From: Candidatus Eisenbergiella stercoravium
GTDB taxonomy: Bacteria; Bacillota; Clostridia; Lachnospirales; Lachnospiraceae
Direction of reading: 5' to 3'
Assembly (NCBI GenBank): GCA_019113175.1
Contig: DXHY01000059.1
Span: 62,001 to 126,000, forward strand
Length of the DNA stretch: 64,000 nt
In this document: in pieces, positions 22,996 to 51,344 of the stretch
Layout of the letters: each line of letters begins with the position of its first letter
Numbering within the stretch: the first letter of the stretch is position 1
Translations under genes and position numbers: made by a program
Notes under the pieces: model-generated
What the model was told of the DNA's origin: nothing
The model's input: only the letters and a program-made list of their open reading frames with translations
Databases searched by the model: none

Positions 22996-23835
22996 ATGTT
23001 TTCCGATATTTTTTTTCATCAGACCGTCACCTACACCAGAACCGAACAGGAAATCATTGATTTTATCTGCAAAAACCCCGGTGTGTTCCTGACCGCTTCC
23101 ATTTCCCAGCTTGCGGAAAGGCTTGGCATCTCCGATGCCTCCCTTTCCCGTCTGGCGAAACATGCGGGATACCCGGACTATAAAGGGCTGAAGGCCGCCG
23201 TGACCGGAGCTCTCAGCGGAGCAGGACCTGCCCAAAAGCTGCAGGGCTCCCTTCAGAATCGGAAGGAGGGCGGGCTGTATGCCTTCCTTTCTCAGCAGCA
23301 GGTCTGTCTGCAGAAAACGCTGGAGCTGATCGATCGGGCCGCCTTTGATCAGGCCGCCGGGCTGATCGCTTCCGCGCACCGGATTTTTCTGCACGGGAAG
23401 GGGGCTTCCCGCTGTCTGGCCCAGCTCCTTCATTTCCGTCTGAACCGCTTTAGGAAGGATGTGTTTCTCATGCCCTCCGGCGGAACGGAGCTGTTTGAAG
23501 ACCTGAACCGTCTTTCCGACAGGGACCTGGTCATCTGCTTCGGCTTTCAGAAGCTGCCGCGGGAGGACAGCGTGCTTCTGTCCCATGCCAGGCAGATCGG
23601 CTGTAAAAGCATTCTGTTCAGCAGCCGGGTCTATGCTGCGGAAACCTCTCAGGCTGACATCAGCCTGCTCATCTACCGGGGCGAACCCGAAGAATATCAT
23701 TCCATGACCGCTCCCATGGCCGTCATCGACGCGTTGATCGTCCAGGTAGCCGCCGCGATGGGAGATGAAGCGGTAGAGCCGCTCGAACGGCTTCATGCCC
23801 TGAAACAGAAATACTACCGGGAGCTTCCAGGTTGA
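22996..23835 (+). CDS. RpiR/MurR-family transcriptional regulator
   Basis: A 279-aa regulator. N-terminal HTH: YTRTEQEIIDFICKNP, then ISQLAERLGISDASLSRLAKHAGYPDYKGLK. The C-terminal SIS domain (about 105-250) binds phosphosugars: IFLHGKGASRCLAQLLHFRL, RDLVICFGFQKLPREDSVLLSHARQIGCKSILF. Start ATG 22996 has AAGGAG upstream. It is convergent with the PHP gene and next to the ECF transporter operon, which it may control, but no shared operator was identified. Duplicated 37-bp promoter-like repeats lie directly upstream. Confidence 0.93.
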   Translation: MFSDIFFHQTVTYTRTEQEIIDFICKNPGVFLTASISQLAERLGISDASLSRLAKHAGYPDYKGLKAAVTGALSGAGPAQKLQGSLQNRKEGGLYAFLSQQQVCLQKTLELIDRAAFDQAAGLIASAHRIFLHGKGASRCLAQLLHFRLNRFRKDVFLMPSGGTELFEDLNRLSDRDLVICFGFQKLPREDSVLLSHARQIGCKSILFSSRVYAAETSQADISLLIYRGEPEEYHSMTAPMAVIDALIVQVAAAMGDEAVEPLERLHALKQKYYRELPG

Positions 23836-23896: not shown

Positions 23897-24694
23897 TCAC
23901 TCCGATACCAGCACCTGCACATAATCCCCGCCCAGGCTGTGAATCTGCTTCAGCGCCTTTTTCAGCACGGAAGCCGTCCGCACCTGGAAGGGCAGGGTGG
24001 CTTCGATATGGATCGTATAGGCTCCTGCGTCCATTTCCTCCTTCAGCCGGGAGAATGTACAGAAATCGGCTGAAAAATCCGTATGCACGCAGCCGTACTG
24101 AAACGCCTGGTGGGTATCGCTTCCCGTGACCACCGGCTTTCCCAGCTTCCTTCCGAATTCTTTTGTCCGTTCTATCGTCTTCTCCGCGTCCTCCGCCAGA
24201 TCCTTTCCGTTCAGGTCAACGAAATCAAAGCCCGTAAGGAGCGAATCGGGAAGGCGCGTAATGTTTCCCGTCCCCTCTTCCATTCCCCGGAACGGATGGC
24301 CCGCGCCCACCAGCACCGGATACTCCCGAAACAGGGCGAGCAGCTGCGCAAAGGACAGAAAACTCCCCTTCTCCTTATGCGGCTCCAGTCTCCGGTTCAG
24401 CTCCAGGATGGCCTCCGCCGGCCCGATGGAAAGGATGTGGCCGCCCTCCGCAATATCCGTCTCCATGCCCGGAAAAATCCGCAGCCCGTCCGCCACAAAA
24501 GTATCCCCCTCCCTGTCACAGCTGTTTTTGATGTGGCCGTAAATCCTGTCAAATCCCAGCGTATTGAAATGCTCGGTCAGGCAGATGGCATCCAGTCCCG
24601 CCCTTTTCGCCTCCGCAAACAGCCAGTTCGTGTAAACCTCGGAAAACGGCAGCTTCTTCGCCAGCTTTCCGTGGGTGTGAAAATCCATTTTCAT
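23897..24694 (-). CDS. PHP-domain metal-dependent phosphoesterase
   Basis: A 265-aa protein with the PHP metal-binding pattern: MDFHTHGK at the N-terminus, LTEHFNTLG, FPGMETDIAEGGHIL, LVGAGHPFR and VTGSDTHQAFQYG. These His/Asp/Glu residues would hold two or three metals for phosphoester hydrolysis. The length suits a small phosphoesterase rather than a polymerase PHP domain. The start is M47 of the track ORF: ATG 24694 with AGGAGG five bases upstream. It is the last gene after the ECF transporter genes, but a 200-bp structured leader separates it from ecfT. Substrate unknown; the neighbours hint at a phosphorylated vitamin or cofactor precursor. Confidence 0.88.
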   Translation of the reverse strand: MKMDFHTHGKLAKKLPFSEVYTNWLFAEAKRAGLDAICLTEHFNTLGFDRIYGHIKNSCDREGDTFVADGLRIFPGMETDIAEGGHILSIGPAEAILELNRRLEPHKEKGSFLSFAQLLALFREYPVLVGAGHPFRGMEEGTGNITRLPDSLLTGFDFVDLNGKDLAEDAEKTIERTKEFGRKLGKPVVTGSDTHQAFQYGCVHTDFSADFCTFSRLKEEMDAGAYTIHIEATLPFQVRTASVLKKALKQIHSLGGDYVQVLVSE

Positions 24695-24706
24695 AGTTAC
24701 CTCCTG

Positions 24707-24787
24707 CCGAAGCGTTTTACGCTGAGGCTCGCGCGCCGAATCTCCCATTCGGCGCACAGGATTTGTGACGCTTCGGCACAAATCCTG
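24707..24787 (-). promoter_or_regulatory. Structured leader of the PHP gene: hairpin loop complementary to a site next to the Shine-Dalgarno
   Basis: In minus-strand order: an 11-bp hairpin CAGGATTTGTG/CACAAATCCTG with 9-nt loop CCGAAGCGT, a second hairpin CGCCGAAT/ATTCGGCG, then ACGCTTCGG, which is perfectly complementary to the loop and directly precedes AGGAGG of the PHP gene. Loop pairing would create a pseudoknot beside the ribosome site. The same architecture precedes the HD gene at 38681-38757. No described class was recognised. Confidence 0.6.
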
Positions 24788-24821
24788 GTTGAAAAATGCG
24801 CTATCGAGCGCATTTTTCAAC
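24788..24821. other. Perfect 15-bp inverted repeat between ecfT and the PHP leader
   Basis: GTTGAAAAATGCGCT, loop of 4, AGCGCATTTTTCAAC. No T-run follows on either strand. It abuts the structured PHP leader and may end the ecfT message or be part of the same element. Confidence 0.65.
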
Positions 24822-24895
24822 CTCCCCTCCATTACTGATTCTGCTTACCGCTCACTCCGCGCCATCCGCGAAGCCGCGCTTTACGCTCTTTCCCG

Positions 24896-25726
24896 TTATG
24901 CAAACATGCCGGGCAGAAGAAAGGCGGCCGCCGTCCAGACGACGGATACGGCGAGAAATATCCCGTCCGCCCTGCCAAGACGCAGGGAAGAAAGATGCAT
25001 CCGCTTCACTTTTTTGTTCTGCGAGGCGTAGCGATAGCCGCGCAGTTCCAGGGCCTCCACGGTGGTCCGGGATTTTTTTGCCATGTTCAGCATCAGCGGA
25101 TAAAAGGCGAGCATGATGATCTTCACCTGGTAGATGAGCCACCGGACCTTTCCCTTCAGGCAGTCTGCGGCGGGCGGATTTCCCCGCAGCCGGTAGGAAA
25201 GAAGAATGCTCTGAAACTCTTCCATCAGTGTAGGAAGGAGCCGATAGGCGAAGGAGATGGAAAAGGACAGGCGTTCCGGGCAGCCGAACCATTCCAGGCC
25301 GCTTGCCAGCCGGTCCGGCTCCAGGCCGGAAAACACGGTGATGGAGGCCAGCGATACGGCGGCCACCTTCAGCGTCATCACCAGAAGGGCGACAACCGTT
25401 TCGCCGTTTCCGCCGAACAGGAGCGATACCAGAAGCAGGTATCCGGTCTGTGTAAACACGCCGATGCCGAACAGGAAAAGAACCAGCGGCGCGATTTTTG
25501 CCAGGGAAGCGGTAATGAGCAGAAAGAGAAACAGCCCGAGCAGCACGCGCACATCCTGCAGAAACCAGGGAACCACGCCGAAGAACAGATACCACAGGAT
25601 CAGCAGCCTGGGGTCCAGCCTGGCTATCACGGTATCGCTGTTTCCATACGCATTTTTCAGCACCTGATTGCGCAGAAAATCTATGGTAAGCTTGTCAAAA
25701 ATGTTTTCCGAAAGTTTTTCCAGCAT
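24896..25726 (-). CDS. ecfT: ECF transporter transmembrane (T) component, EcfT
   Basis: About 276 aa, with five or six hydrophobic segments. The coupling motifs near the C-terminus, LRGNPPAADCLKG and then EALELRGYRY, correspond to the two short Ala-Arg-Gly-type motifs through which EcfT grips the ATPases. DPRLLILWYLFFG near the N-terminus is typical of EcfT. I prefer ATG 25726 (MLEKLSEN), six bases after GGAGG; ATG 25732 would overlap the upstream stop as ATGA. It follows the ATPase and S-component genes, completing the transporter. Confidence 0.88.
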   Translation of the reverse strand: MLEKLSENIFDKLTIDFLRNQVLKNAYGNSDTVIARLDPRLLILWYLFFGVVPWFLQDVRVLLGLFLFLLITASLAKIAPLVLFLFGIGVFTQTGYLLLVSLLFGGNGETVVALLVMTLKVAAVSLASITVFSGLEPDRLASGLEWFGCPERLSFSISFAYRLLPTLMEEFQSILLSYRLRGNPPAADCLKGKVRWLIYQVKIIMLAFYPLMLNMAKKSRTTVEALELRGYRYASQNKKVKRMHLSSLRLGRADGIFLAVSVVWTAAAFLLPGMFA

Positions 25727-25728
25727 AA

Positions 25729-27474
25729 TCATCCTCCCGCACATACAGCGAACGCTTCCTTCTCCGGCCGGACGTTTACCGATGCGTTTCCGAAGCATTC
25801 CACAAATTCATCCACCGTATAGCACCTGGCCCGCTCATCCAGCGCGCGTCCCATGGCAAAAATCTCCGGCGGACGGATTCCCACAAGCCGGGCGAGCCGC
25901 TCATCCGCAAAGATCTCATCCCGGGTGCCGTCCGCGATCAGGTTCCCCTGATGCAGCACCAGAATCCTCTCCGCCCACTGGCAGACGAGCTGCATGTCAT
26001 GGGTGGCGATCAGCACCGTTTCCGTCACGTTCTTCAGCCTTTCCAGCGTATCCAGAATCTCCGCCCGCGTGGCAATGTCCAGATTGGCTGTGGGCTCGTC
26101 CAGCAGAAGCACAGAAGGGTTCAGGGCAACGCCGATAGCGAGGGAGGCCCTACGCATCTGCCCGCCTGAGAGCAGGCGCCCGTCCCTCTCCTGAAGCTGC
26201 GTCAGGCCGAACTGGGAAAGGAGAAGCCGGGTCTGTTCCTCCCAGTCCTTCACTCCGCGCGCCTTCATGGCGTACGCGATGTCCGCGCCGATGGAATCCT
26301 TGATGAACATTTCCTCCGGATTCTGATACACATAGGAAAGACAGTCCGCCAGCTTTTCCGGCTTCGTTTTCCCCGCGTCACGGCCGCAGACGGTCACACG
26401 GCCCTCCGCCGCCTTCAGCGTTCCGGTCAGAAGCTTCATCATGGTGGATTTTCCGGCCCCGTTGGAGCCGATCACCGCCACCTTTTGTCCTCTTTTCACA
26501 TCCAGGAAAAAATGGTTCAGACTTCTGGTGTTCTCTCCCTTCACTGCCCGGTATTCCACACTCACATCCTCAAAGGACAGGACCGTTTCCCGCCCGTCCG
26601 CCGGTACGGCACTTCTCCTCCCCGGCAGGGGACGATGGTAGCGGCAGGAAGCAAAAGCCTGTCCGCCCTCCTCCACGGTAACGGGAAGCCGGACATCGTC
26701 TGGCAGGCAGTCCTGTTCCTTCAGCCGCATGGCGGCCAGCGCTGTCTGCGGCGGGAAAATGCTGCTCTCCTGCAGATCCTTTATGCGCCGCAGGGCTTCC
26801 TTCGCCTCCAGCTTCCAGAGAATCCGGCCATCCCGCATCAGCACCGCATGCCTGCAATACCGGGCGATGTACTCCGTATGATGCTCGATCACGATGATGG
26901 TCTTTCCGTAGTCCTCGTTCAGCCGTTTCAATATTTCATAGGTCTGTCCGGCATGAAGGGGATCCAGCTGGGCGATGGGCTCATCCAGAATCAGCACCTC
27001 CGGGCACAGGGCCGCCGCCCCTGCAAGAGCGAGCAGATGCTTCTGACCGCCGGAAAGCTGCCAGACAAAATCCTCTTCCCTGCCTTCCAGGCCGCACATT
27101 TTCAGGGCTTCTCTTCCTTTTTCCAGATAGTCCTCGCAGCTGTAATTCAGACAGGAAAAGGAGGCATCGTCCAGCACCGTGGGGCGGACGATCTGATTTT
27201 CAAAATCCTGATATACATATCCCACCTTTTCCGCCAGCCTGCCCACATCCTGTTCTGCGGTATCCTGCCCGTCTATCCACACCCGCCCGGTCATATCGCC
27301 CGCAATGAAATGGGGAATCAGTCCGTTCAGCGCCTTGCAGAGCGTGGATTTCCCGCAGCCATTGTTTCCGATGACTGCAAGAAAATCCCCTTTTTCCACA
27401 TGCAGGCTGATATTTTTCAGCGTTTCCTTCTCCGCTCCCGGATAGGTAAATGTCAAATCTTCAATTCGTATCAT
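25729..27474 (-). CDS. ECF transporter ATPase, tandem double-ABC protein
   Basis: A 581-aa cytoplasmic protein carrying both ATPase halves in one chain. First domain: GNNGCGKST, LSGGQKHLLALAGAA, VLILDEPIAQLD, and switch His in VIEHHTEY. Second domain: GSNGAGKST, LSGGQMRRASLAIGV, VLLLDEPTANLD, THDMQL. Both sites have intact catalytic Glu. Fused EcfA1-EcfA2 proteins of this size usually belong to dedicated ECF systems, here with the S and T genes in the same operon. ATG 27474 follows AGGAG; the stop overlaps the ecfT start region. Confidence 0.93.
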   Translation of the reverse strand: MIRIEDLTFTYPGAEKETLKNISLHVEKGDFLAVIGNNGCGKSTLCKALNGLIPHFIAGDMTGRVWIDGQDTAEQDVGRLAEKVGYVYQDFENQIVRPTVLDDASFSCLNYSCEDYLEKGREALKMCGLEGREEDFVWQLSGGQKHLLALAGAAALCPEVLILDEPIAQLDPLHAGQTYEILKRLNEDYGKTIIVIEHHTEYIARYCRHAVLMRDGRILWKLEAKEALRRIKDLQESSIFPPQTALAAMRLKEQDCLPDDVRLPVTVEEGGQAFASCRYHRPLPGRRSAVPADGRETVLSFEDVSVEYRAVKGENTRSLNHFFLDVKRGQKVAVIGSNGAGKSTMMKLLTGTLKAAEGRVTVCGRDAGKTKPEKLADCLSYVYQNPEEMFIKDSIGADIAYAMKARGVKDWEEQTRLLLSQFGLTQLQERDGRLLSGGQMRRASLAIGVALNPSVLLLDEPTANLDIATRAEILDTLERLKNVTETVLIATHDMQLVCQWAERILVLHQGNLIADGTRDEIFADERLARLVGIRPPEIFAMGRALDERARCYTVDEFVECFGNASVNVRPEKEAFAVCAGG

Positions 27475-27515
27475 ACTTCCGCTCCTGCGGCCGGACGGCC
27501 GCTTTTATTCCGCCT

Positions 27516-28370
27516 TTATTCCGCTTCTTTCAGGCTCGCGTTTCTGCGCATCCAGAAAAGGACGATTCCTGCAACAACCGCAGCGATGACGATTCCGGTA
27601 AACAGCGCTCCCGTGCTCTCCGCCCAGGATGCCTCCCAGTCGATCAGGCTCAGGCCGCTTTCCGCAAGACATTCCGCGCCAATTGCAGCCGCGAAGAACA
27701 CCACGCAGATCACGATATTGCGGATGGACAGCGCACCGCCCTGCGGCATGTTTTCAGCCGTTCGGGGCTTCATGCCGAGCAGCGGCTCAATCTTTCCATA
27801 GAGCCTGGGAACCAGAAACATGGTGGGAAGCATGCAGAACAGGATGCCGGAGAAAAGCACGTCGTTCAGGCAGGCAAAGCCCTCGGTCGCAAACACACTT
27901 TCCGGGAGTCCGGGAACCGCTTCAAATTCTGTAAAAGACGCCTGAACCTTCACGATATCCACAATCGTTCCCATCAGCTGCTGCACTGCCACGCCGAAGA
28001 TGGAGGCAGCTGCAACGGCTCCCCGGTTCTTCGGGTTCTTCACCAGGCGGCCAGCCAAATATACGCCGATGGTTACGGTGATGAATTTTTCCAGCTCTCC
28101 CAGCCCGCCGAACTGTCCCAGCATGATCTCGCTGAAAACAAGCTCTCCTGTCGCCGCTCCCAGCGCCGCGGACAGCGGGTCAAAAAGGATCGACAGAGTG
28201 AGCGGGATGAACAGGAAATACTCCACGGAAAACTCCACAATTCCTACCTGGAAGGATGGGATCAGCTCCGTGATCAGAGTTGCCAGACCATACAGAGACA
28301 TGGTCAGAACGAACACCATCAGCTTCTGTGACTGGGTGATGCCATATGCTTTGCTGTTTGCCGGATTCAT
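27516..28370 (-). CDS. ECF transporter substrate-binding S component, ligand unknown
   Basis: About 284 aa, with six or more hydrophobic helices. Family-like features are the N-terminal cytoplasmic stretch and first helix (QSQKLMVFVLTMSLYGLATL), then FLFIPLTLSILFDPLSAALGAATGELVF, resembling the conserved S-component loop. The C-terminus ends in a charged tail after a last helix. ATG 28370 (MNPANSKAY) with GGAGG eight bases upstream is preferred over the track start. It heads the operon S, A-A, T, PHP. The ligand cannot be inferred from sequence: no riboswitch upstream was recognised that would name a vitamin. Confidence 0.85.
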   Translation of the reverse strand: MNPANSKAYGITQSQKLMVFVLTMSLYGLATLITELIPSFQVGIVEFSVEYFLFIPLTLSILFDPLSAALGAATGELVFSEIMLGQFGGLGELEKFITVTIGVYLAGRLVKNPKNRGAVAAASIFGVAVQQLMGTIVDIVKVQASFTEFEAVPGLPESVFATEGFACLNDVLFSGILFCMLPTMFLVPRLYGKIEPLLGMKPRTAENMPQGGALSIRNIVICVVFFAAAIGAECLAESGLSLIDWEASWAESTGALFTGIVIAAVVAGIVLFWMRRNASLKEAE

Positions 28371-28586
28371 GATGATAACCTCCATTGTTTTCTCATGTTT
28401 TCTTTCAGGCCCTTACCGCCAGGCGGCTCAGAGCCGTTCCTTATTGATACAATTTTATTATAAAGGAAGAATGTAAATTTATATATCAAACGAATTTAAA
28501 ATGTAAGTAAATTTTCATTTTCTTGTAAGTTGTAACAAAAGCACACATGAGTTCCTCAGGAAGACTGCTCCATATATATAAAGAAA

Positions 28587-37417: not shown

Positions 37418-37918
37418 TCAGCCCGCCTTCGCCTGCTCCTCTTCCCAGCCCTTGCATACATCCACCCATTCCGCGCTTCCGGAATATTCCTCCAGCTCCT
37501 GCATGGTCAGCTCGATAGCGCTGTTGCTGCTGCCACAGGCGGGAAATACGGTGGAAAACCGCTTCAGGGATTCATCCAGATAGATTTTCACCCCGTCGTT
37601 CACCGCAAAGGGGCACACTCCGCCCACCGCATGGCCGATTTTTTCCTCTACCTCTGCAGCCGGGATCATCTTCGCCTTCATGCCGAAGCGCGCCTTATAC
37701 TTGGCGTTATCCACCTTCGCATCCCCTGCCGCGACGATCAATACACATTCCTCTCCCTGATAGAAGGACAGGGTCTTTGCGATCCGCTTTCCTTCACAGT
37801 GCAGAGCCTGCGCCGCCAGCTCCACCGTAGCGCTGGAGACCTCAAACTCCTGAATCCGGTCCTGTGCATTCCACTGCTTTAAATATTCTCTCACTCTTTC
37901 GATTGCCATTTCATCCAT
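37418..37918 (-). CDS. YbaK/EbsC-family aminoacyl-tRNA deacylase
   Basis: A 166-aa cytoplasmic editing protein of the Cys-tRNA(Pro)/Ala-tRNA(Pro) deacylase family. Key motifs are GKRIAKTLSF, CVLIVAAGDAKVD, and IGHAVGGVCPFAV, the last being the YbaK substrate loop (GG-x-x-PFG type). The gene overlaps the 3' end of the HD hydrolase gene by 28 bp, and its start ATG 37918 sits five bases after GGAGG within that gene. Tight coupling suggests one transcript starting at the HD gene. Confidence 0.9.
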   Translation of the reverse strand: MDEMAIERVREYLKQWNAQDRIQEFEVSSATVELAAQALHCEGKRIAKTLSFYQGEECVLIVAAGDAKVDNAKYKARFGMKAKMIPAAEVEEKIGHAVGGVCPFAVNDGVKIYLDESLKRFSTVFPACGSSNSAIELTMQELEEYSGSAEWVDVCKGWEEEQAKAG

Positions 37919-38667
37919 TCCTCCATGTGCTTCCTGACTGCCGCGAACTGCTCCATCGTTATGGGATTGTCCGAGGAGAAGGAAAGCATCTTTTCCAAGT
38001 ATCCCTGTTCCCGCACGATCCGGAGACTGACAGGAAACACCAGCTCATACACCAGGGAAATATGACCGATCACATGATCAGCAGCCGTCCTTTTCAGGCT
38101 CCGAAGCACCGCCTTATCCTCATAAAAGGCGGCAAGTACCTCGGGAGATACCTGACAGCTTCGCAGCTCCTGCGTGGAAACATTATAGATTTCCTCCAGC
38201 GGAAAATCCACGTTTACCTTCAGGATATCGATCTTGTCCGCATCCCTCAGTATATTGCAGAAACGGGCTGTCCGCCCGTCCAGTCCCTCCGGAATCCGGT
38301 AGGCGCTGTGCCAGGCCACGGCCGTACGCAACAGTTCGTCCTCCCCGGAATCGCTGACATAATCCCGGATTCTGTCTGAAGAAAACAGAATCTCCGCCCC
38401 GTACCGGGCATGGTCGATGGACTCCGCGTCGATGAAGGTTCCATACCTCCTCAGCTGTTCAAAACGTCCCACATCATGCAGAAGTCCTGCAAGCCAGGCC
38501 AGATCCTGCTCCTCCCCGGTCATCTCAAGAGACCGCGCGATTTTTTCACAAAGCTGCGCAACCCGCCAGGTATGTTCGATTTTCAGCCGTACCTTATCGT
38601 CCTGCACGTCATAATGCGACGTATATTCCCGGAACGCGTCCGAAGCTTTCTTTCTGTCTATTTTCAT
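37891..38667 (-). CDS. HD-domain phosphohydrolase
   Basis: About 258 aa. The HD metal-binding residues are visible as KIEHTWRVAQLCEKIA (first His), LAGLLHDVGRFEQ (His-Asp pair), and DADKIDILKV (last Asp). This order matches predicted HD phosphohydrolases acting on nucleotides or signalling nucleotides; the true substrate is unknown. The track ORF starts at 38793, but ATG 38667 (MKIDRKKAS) with GAGGA about six bases upstream is the clear start, placing the structured leader entirely in the untranslated region. It is followed by the overlapping YbaK-like gene. Confidence 0.88.
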   Translation of the reverse strand: MKIDRKKASDAFREYTSHYDVQDDKVRLKIEHTWRVAQLCEKIARSLEMTGEEQDLAWLAGLLHDVGRFEQLRRYGTFIDAESIDHARYGAEILFSSDRIRDYVSDSGEDELLRTAVAWHSAYRIPEGLDGRTARFCNILRDADKIDILKVNVDFPLEEIYNVSTQELRSCQVSPEVLAAFYEDKAVLRSLKRTAADHVIGHISLVYELVFPVSLRIVREQGYLEKMLSFSSDNPITMEQFAAVRKHMEEWMKWQSKE

Positions 38668-38680
38668 TTTAATCCTCATT

Positions 38681-38757
38681 CCGGAGCGTAGCAAAGCTTT
38701 GCTTTGCCGTGACGGGGCGATGCCTAAGAGCAATTTGTGACGCTCCGGCACAAATTG
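38681..38757 (-). promoter_or_regulatory. Structured leader of the HD gene, same architecture as the PHP leader
   Basis: Minus strand: 9-bp hairpin CAATTTGTG/CACAAATTG with 9-nt loop CCGGAGCGT, about 50 nt of spacer containing the palindrome AGCAAAGCTTTGCT, then ACGCTCCGG, fully complementary to the loop, four bases before the GAGGA ribosome site. Compared with the PHP leader, one A-U loop pair is replaced by G-C on both sides, and the hairpin stem also covaries. Confidence 0.6.
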
Positions 38758-38799
38758 CCACCGAACCTGTCCGGCTGTGAAACAATAAGCCATCCGGCT

Positions 38800-39474
38800 T
38801 CACCGGATCACAAGCCCCATCAGCCTGGCCAGCTCCGCCGCCTGGTACAGATCCACCACAGCCCCGGCCAGTTCCTTTTTTTCATCGGATATCAGAATGC
38901 CCTCGATCTCACAGCTGCGCAGGTCCAGACCGCGCAGAGCGGTTCCGAACAGATTGGCCCGGTTCAGCTTCACCCGGTTCAGCCCCGTTTTCTTCAGCCG
39001 GCATTCCTCCAGATAGCTCTCCTGCAGATCGCAGCCGTTCAGCAGAGCCGACTCCCAGGATGTACCGCTGAAATTGGCATAGGAAAACACGCAGTCCTCC
39101 ATCCGGACTTCCTTAAGCAGACTTTCATGAAAATCCGCTCCCACACCCTTTACGGAAAGGAAGGCACACCTGTGAAAATAACAGTCTGTCAGCCTGCTTC
39201 CGGAAAAGTCGCAGCCACGAAATAAAACGTCCACAAAGGACGCCTTTTCAAAATCGCAGTCATGGAAGCTGCAGCCGGATAATTCCACACTTTTCAGGCT
39301 TCCCCTGTAAAAGCTCTCACCCTCCGCCGCAATTCCCTTCAGCAGACATTCCTCTGCCTGCCGCTCCTGTTCGATGCAGTCGAGCAGCCACTGAAGGGGA
39401 TTTTCAGGCACAACGGGAGCATTGTGAAGAATGGGAGCCATCACTCCGCCCCGTATTCCTGCTTTTTTGTTCAT
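38800..39474 (-). CDS. Pentapeptide repeat protein
   Basis: A 224-aa protein whose residues about 55-205 consist of A(D/N)Lxx-type pentapeptides: LSGCSFHDCDFEKASFVDV, CDFSGSRLTDCYFHRC, NFSGTSWESALLNGCDLQES, NRANLFGTALRGLDLRSCEIEG. These coil into a quadrilateral beta-helix. Some relatives mimic DNA and protect gyrase; others have no known role, and nothing here decides. No membrane segment or signal peptide is seen. It stands alone upstream of the HD gene on the same strand. Confidence 0.88.
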   Translation of the reverse strand: MNKKAGIRGGVMAPILHNAPVVPENPLQWLLDCIEQERQAEECLLKGIAAEGESFYRGSLKSVELSGCSFHDCDFEKASFVDVLFRGCDFSGSRLTDCYFHRCAFLSVKGVGADFHESLLKEVRMEDCVFSYANFSGTSWESALLNGCDLQESYLEECRLKKTGLNRVKLNRANLFGTALRGLDLRSCEIEGILISDEKKELAGAVVDLYQAAELARLMGLVIR

Positions 39475-51278: not shown

Positions 51279-51344
51279 GGAATCTCCTCCATTCCGGAGC
51301 GTTTCGCCCCTTATTTCTGTCACGATTTCCTTTGAACTGCCATA

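Follow-up and report, generated by a model that had tools for sequence, protein, structure and literature searches.

Among small bacterial repeats, BOX comes closest in spirit to the element described here. The BOX, RUP and SPRITE repeats of Streptococcus pneumoniae share with it small size, dispersal, modular build, RNA folding and a lack of autonomy; they can be transcribed in 5' regions and are able to carry start codons (PMC3049150). BOX differs, however, in its terminal inverted repeats resembling ISSpn2, in its varied orientations and in its capacity to encode gene ends, and it has not been reported between a Shine-Dalgarno sequence (SD) and an ATG, nor with a loop-to-SD pseudoknot (PMC3049150). 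REP/BIME palindromes, mobilised by the Y1 transposase RAYT, are also multi-copy hairpins without terminal inverted repeats, but copies of the present element stand before genes at the start codon, in the sense direction only, and several carriers have no Y1 transposase. MITEs resemble the element as short, non-coding, mobile sequences present in many near-identical copies (PMC10969869; PMC2229807); the element differs in having neither terminal inverted repeats nor a clear target duplication, and these two reviews of MITEs and short mobile sequences do not mention start codons, Shine-Dalgarno sequences or pseudoknots. Pseudoknotted translational riboswitches of the preQ1 type (PMC9410914) likewise set a pseudoknot strand beside or overlapping the SD, whereas the element is mobile, precedes unrelated host genes and has no known ligand. 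A literature search, with most subscription journals outside its coverage, found no description of an element that inserts between an SD and a start codon.

At the gathering score, Rfam 15 gave no match in the window (the whole 64,000-nt stretch analysed) or in 12 copy-bearing loci. TD-2 RNA (RF03162) produced sub-threshold full-length matches of 32-43 bits against a gathering score of 48.7, the best (43.3) in locus L064. This likeness derives mainly from a UGAAAA...UUUUCA stem like that of hairpin A described below; the TD-2 model contains neither a loop-target pseudoknot nor an SD, and the full-length matches are antisense. Membership of TD-2 was rejected on account of the scores below the curated threshold and of the orientation.

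The hairpin-pseudoknots upstream of the PHP and HD genes are members of a large family of small mobile elements found in gut Lachnospiraceae. The sequence-only reading had left the choice between a regulatory pseudoknot RNA and a mobile repeat; its pseudoknot geometry and its repeat family both stood, while a conserved leader of metal-dependent hydrolases did not. At the PHP gene (copy 1), the layout is as follows:

24821-24830, minus strand: SD1 (GGAGGGGAGG), now ahead of the element (sequence)
24787-24822, minus strand: hairpin A, 16-bp stem with CGAT loop (sequence; stem covariation, including the first base of the start codon)
24818-24820, minus strand: leader start codon TTG, in the 5' arm of hairpin A
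24757-24787, minus strand: hairpin B, 11-bp stem with 9-nt loop (sequence; stem covariation)
24768-24776, minus strand: loop CCGAAGCGT of hairpin B, which forms pseudoknot strand 1 (perfect complementarity with 24707-24715; covariation)
24731-24757, minus strand: hairpin C, a variable module between hairpin B and the target (sequence)
24711-24723, minus strand: hairpin D (AGCGT-AAA-ACGCT), rival of the pseudoknot for the target (stem counts against shuffles)
24707-24715, minus strand: target ACGCTTCGG, pseudoknot strand 2 (sequence; covariation)
24700-24705, minus strand: SD2 (AGGAGG), from the 3' end of the element (sequence)
23897-24694, minus strand: PHP-domain gene, host of copy 1, with its ATG at 24692-24694

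Read on the minus strand, hairpin A consists of GGTTGAAAAATGCGCT-CGAT-AGCGCATTTTTCAACC and hairpin B of CAGGATTTGTG-CCGAAGCGT-CACAAATCCTG. As the earlier reading had described, the 9-nt loop of the 11-bp hairpin is the exact reverse complement of ACGCTTCGG, which stops one base short of AGGAGG, and a second hairpin (CGCCGAAT-GGGAG-ATTCGGCG) lies between the two. From the target, the order is ACGCTTCGG, C, AGGAGG, TAACT and ATG. Three features had escaped that reading: the third, 5' hairpin (A, 24787-24822) with a start codon behind a second SD; the small hairpin D, which overlaps the target; and the leader frame of this copy, which continues in frame into the PHP gene. Judged from translations, an apparent energy-coupling-factor transporter cluster (24896-28385, minus strand) with an EcfT-like protein, a fused EcfA-like protein and a membrane component lies just upstream of the PHP gene. 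An RpiR-type regulator is at 22996-23835 on the plus strand.

The second copy precedes the HD gene and, as proposed earlier, shares the layout, with a loop-to-target spacing of 50 nt against 52 at PHP; the last line gives a separate solo 3' end elsewhere in the window:

38777-38800, minus strand: hairpin A remnant (CCGGATGGCTTATTGTTTCAC), without leader start (sequence)
38730-38759, minus strand: hairpin B, with loop CCGGAGCGT at 38740-38748 (sequence)
38681-38689, minus strand: target ACGCTCCGG (sequence)
38674-38677, minus strand: SD2, GAGG within AATGAGGATTAAA-ATG (sequence)
37891-38667, minus strand: HD-domain gene, host of copy 2
51287-51302, minus strand: solo 3' end ACGCTCCGGAATGGAG before another ATG, with no hairpins (sequence)

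The HD site keeps the core of hairpin B, target, SD and ATG but just a remnant of hairpin A. Between the PHP and HD copies, an A/G change in the loop is paired with a T/C change in the target. The hairpin sequence TTGTGCCGRAGCGTCACAA occurs exactly twice in the window, where dinucleotide shuffles yield 0.02 matches at up to 3 mismatches. Upstream, the reading frames of both host genes remain open across the element (PHP, 23897-24832, minus strand, 311 aa; HD, 37891-38793, minus strand, 300 aa), and gene callers may therefore annotate N-terminal extensions that are false and consist of element sequence.

Family size was gauged by pattern searches, which also supply the erosion counts given below. 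The genome of the window (G000, 95% complete) holds 44 matches to TTGTGCCGRAGCGTCACAA at up to 3 mismatches, with none for the reversed pattern; altogether, 44-47 hairpin copies and 114-188 matches to the 3' end were counted, against 0-2 in the control. Hairpin matches number 0 to 65 in relatives of the same genus and reach 16 in single genera elsewhere in the family and order. The covariance-model search of Lachnospiraceae that the sequence-only reading had called for was run with a model of hairpins A and B alone (R1). It matched both window copies (24753-24825, E 3.7e-17; 38725-38778, E 1.1e-7) and, among 397 Lachnospiraceae sampled, detected 46 carriers in 41 of 334 genera, while a 399-genome sample of the phylum gave no match beyond the window's own genome. 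Named carriers in the species collection include metagenome-assembled genomes of Eisenbergiella, Acetatifactor, Roseburia and Lachnospira, and the isolate Parablautia intestinalis D8-82 is also a carrier. The 3' motif is present in hairpin-bearing genomes and nearly absent from relatives without hairpins. The element also interrupts short-read assemblies: many contigs start or end within it, about 40-130 nt from the hairpin or the 3' end (L003, L005, L006 and L063 in G000; C3, C23, C25, C34 and C45 in G005).

In stem A, covariation is seen in the middle and at the outer pairs, one of which (7-41) contains the first base of the leader start codon and is GC in 23 copies, UA in 23 and AU in 5. 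Stem B covaries at four or five pairs. For the pseudoknot of the common type, loop position 4 and target position 6 combine as G-C in 44 copies, A-T in 22, G-T in 14 and A-C in none (n=81), so that a loop A never stands opposite a target C, where about 12 such cases would be expected. These counts are inflated by the relatedness of the copies, and an independent test across genera is therefore the better one. In copies recovered by R1 from other genera, loops differ and targets differ to match over the whole helix, as in the loop/target pairs CCGCAGGCGY/GCGTCTGCGG, CCGCAGGCAC/GTGCCTGCGG, CCGAGAACGT/ACGTTCTCGG, CCGGAGC/GCTCCGG and TTTCTGAGCA/TGCTCAGAAA of different subfamilies. A loop paired with its own target gives -16.5 kcal/mol on average (n=50), against -9.3 kcal/mol for loops and targets swapped between genomes whose loops differ; 2% of the swaps reach the median of the own duplexes. 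The proposed geometry is thereby borne out across genera, and on comparative grounds the loop-target pseudoknot is real. A loop that pairs with a strand beside the SD, the pairing being kept by covariation, is what pseudoknotted translational riboswitches also display. The 5' half of the target additionally pairs with the strand just upstream to form hairpin D, whose stem reaches at least 4 bp in 71 of 226 copies against 16 in shuffles; because this half of the target is shared, the two folds compete for it. Hairpin C, or its loop, is flipped between the orthologous proS copies of G000 (L011, GAATTGAAGATTC) and G008 (L153, GAATCTTCAATTC), which suggests inversion or template switching inside the palindrome.

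Placement was scored on the 109 exact hairpin matches of the species collection that had enough flank, as the presence, 20-180 nt downstream, of an SD with a start codon and an ORF. This arrangement was found in the sense direction at 99 of 109 sites and in the opposite direction at 9 of 109, so the matches do lie before start codons on one strand, as the earlier reading had asked, and are not randomly placed. Contig gaps or diverged SDs account for most misses, and two sites (L222 and L295) matched by chance. The start codon follows the end of the target at a distance of 13 nt in about 80% of copies (64 of 81 and 77 of 99) and of 12-15 nt in nearly all others, and SD1 lies 4-7 nt ahead of the element's own NTG in most copies. 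The host genes have no common function: they include PHP and HD genes, trpA, OTC, proS, murF, cytidine deaminase, response regulators, ABC transporters and others. These unrelated hosts rule out a regulon of metal-dependent hydrolases.

Orthologous sites with and without the element point to insertion. G000, G008 and G010 carry the element at trpA, where G004, G006, G007 and G009 have an empty site: that of G006 reads ...CGTGGAGAGGGGGATTTGT directly before the ATG, and the filled site of G000 reads ...CGTGGAGAAGGAGA, then the element ending in GGAATGGAGA, then TTTGT and the ATG. At L025 of G000, AAAAGAGGTATT is followed by the element, from AGTGTGAAAAAT to GGAATGGAGATT, and by AAG before ATGGACGAG; in the counterpart of G008 (L159), AAAAGAGGTATTGTAG directly adjoins ATGGACGAG. 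OTC has the element in G000 and an empty site in G006, G008 and G010, PHP orthologues of G004, G007, G009 and G010 have no element, and the HD orthologue of G006, 89% identical, has an empty site. In these pairs, the insertion is in sense, between SD and ATG and about 3-4 nt ahead of the latter. The host SD stays to the left of the insertion, facing the start codon in the element's 5' hairpin, and the element contributes AATGGAG as a new SD for the host gene. At several loci, a full element immediately follows an older 3' end and so separates the SD of the latter from the next start; such head-to-tail tandems, in which the later copy entered behind the SD of the earlier, would be expected if the start site is itself the target. 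Empty and filled orthologous sites, near-identical dispersed copies and nested or tandem insertions are the marks of a mobile element. Terminal inverted repeats were not found, the 5' end (AGTGTGAAAAAT) and the 3' end (AATGGAGATT) not being complementary, and the filled/empty pairs show no clear target-site duplication, with SD-like sequence on both sides blurring the ends. At the filled trpB-trpA junction (L125, L132, L133), the 5' arm of hairpin A is altered in such a way that TrpB still ends in ...GEG(D/E)LQE-stop; in G010, the 3' arm is altered too, which preserves the pairing.

Taken together, these observations favour, as the probable reading, a mobile, non-protein-coding structured element of about 100-200 nt that inserts in sense between SD and ATG, brings a new SD and carries a pseudoknot-protected initiation site. 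The element enters about 3-4 nt before the host ATG; the host SD then faces a start codon that belongs to the element (AG-N-NTG AAA AAT) and lies in hairpin A, and the 3' end of the element (target-AATGGAG-N6) provides the host gene with its new SD. Because copies that silence their host would be lost, this 3' end may have become, by evolution, an initiation site complete in itself. Hairpin B pairs, through its loop, with the target strand immediately 5' of the new SD; this strand could otherwise pair with the SD itself (CUYC/GGAG), and the pseudoknot would hold it off, with hairpin D as the competing fold. Keeping the target off the SD may be what makes the insertion tolerable. That the family represents a start-codon-targeting mobile element in the full sense, combining sense-only insertion, SD capture, a new SD and a co-evolving pseudoknot and perhaps moving by a ribosome- or mRNA-dependent route, is a tentative proposal.

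If the favoured reading is true, some gut Lachnospiraceae carry, in each genome, from dozens to well over a hundred genes with a rebuilt translation start, and the rebuilder is a parasite that respects gene expression. Gene calling would be affected, for instance by a false N-terminal extension in the 311-aa PHP ORF, as would leaders read as riboswitches and assembly, through contig breaks in the repeat. It would also raise the testable question of precise DNA or RNA insertion at start codons, and it might yield a tool for putting control elements ahead of genes.

A different reading, which we regard as unlikely, is a palindrome of the REP/MITE type whose hairpins and pseudoknot serve a single-stranded-DNA transposase and whose placement reflects target choice plus purifying selection. 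Hairpins without terminal inverted repeats do recall substrates of HUH transposases, and the structure is dispensable to the host. However, the Y1 transposase (PF01797) was not found in G000, G002 or G004-G007, all copy-rich, on which ground mobilisation by RAYT was rejected, and selection alone leaves unexplained both why no antisense or harmless intergenic copies were seen and why the distance to the start codon is fixed. The mobiliser may be another protein, a lost one or a host process. Carriage by plasmids or phages was set aside, as neither collection gave a BLAST match; a single viral-contig match was rejected for having no target or start codon.

The effect of the pseudoknot on initiation was approached by folding. 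Without it, most copies have the new SD paired, and the target is often its partner (CTY...GAG in 163 of 176). With loop and target held apart to mimic the pseudoknot, the probability that the SD is unpaired rises from 0.29 to 0.51, and the SD becomes more open in 51 of 90 copies and less open in 12 of 90, a modest effect from a nested model without pseudoknot loop energies. In silico, folding thus mildly favours exposure of the SD over masking. A ribosome translating the leader would unwind hairpins A and B and so break the pseudoknot, and leader and host translation are therefore probably linked. Leader translation is not universal, as some copies read NTG-TAA or have no hairpin A. The leader is open through hairpin B in 74 of 77 copies; this openness comes largely from the fixed 5' sequence and hence gives no evidence of coding selection. 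A conserved leader peptide was rejected, since fixed 5' letters (GTGA, AATAAG) close the other frames and three element types use three different frames. A gene-leader fusion was likewise rejected, the leader frame showing no clear preference relative to the gene frame (23/28/26).

Erosion of the copies indicates which part matters to the host. With 2 mismatches allowed, the 3' pattern ACGCTYCGG[AC]ATGGAG matches G000 at 188 places (control, 2), greatly outnumbering the B hairpins, and among 30 3'-end loci examined, roughly half retain hairpin B and the others hairpins C/D or just the target plus SD. As many copies have lost their hairpins and kept the SD, it is the new SD that the host must keep, the pseudoknot being dispensable in the long run. 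Such erosion argues against an essential regulator and for a structure that serves the element itself, or the host only at first. It bears on the reading of the family as a cis-regulatory RNA, a riboswitch or protein-binding leader of a dispersed regulon in which the pseudoknot masks or exposes the SD. The conserved three-hairpin architecture, the pseudoknot adjoining the SD, the sense placement before genes and the competing hairpin D, which resembles an expression platform, would all suit such an RNA. Yet no coherent regulon conserved at orthologues emerged, since the hosts share no function and the orthologues of sister species are empty; the family is patchy (41 of 334 genera), eroded copies retain just the SD, and outside the paired elements there is no sign of a long conserved ligand pocket, which together make this reading quite improbable.

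Equally improbable is an RNA-mediated element retro-inserted at initiating mRNAs, with the ribosome-bound start as target and 5'-eroded copies as truncated reverse-transcription products: sense-only, start-codon-anchored insertion with a constant 3' end and variable 5' loss fits this route, but 9 of the 20 carriers tested, among them the single-contig genome G440, had no match to reverse transcriptase (PF00078), and several eroded copies (L401, L384) are clear internal deletions rather than 5' truncations. At L384, L393, L397 and L143, the last being the HD orthologue of G010, one junction recurs in several unrelated host genes: the 5' arm of hairpin B runs straight into the target (GGATTTGCG joined to ACGCT).
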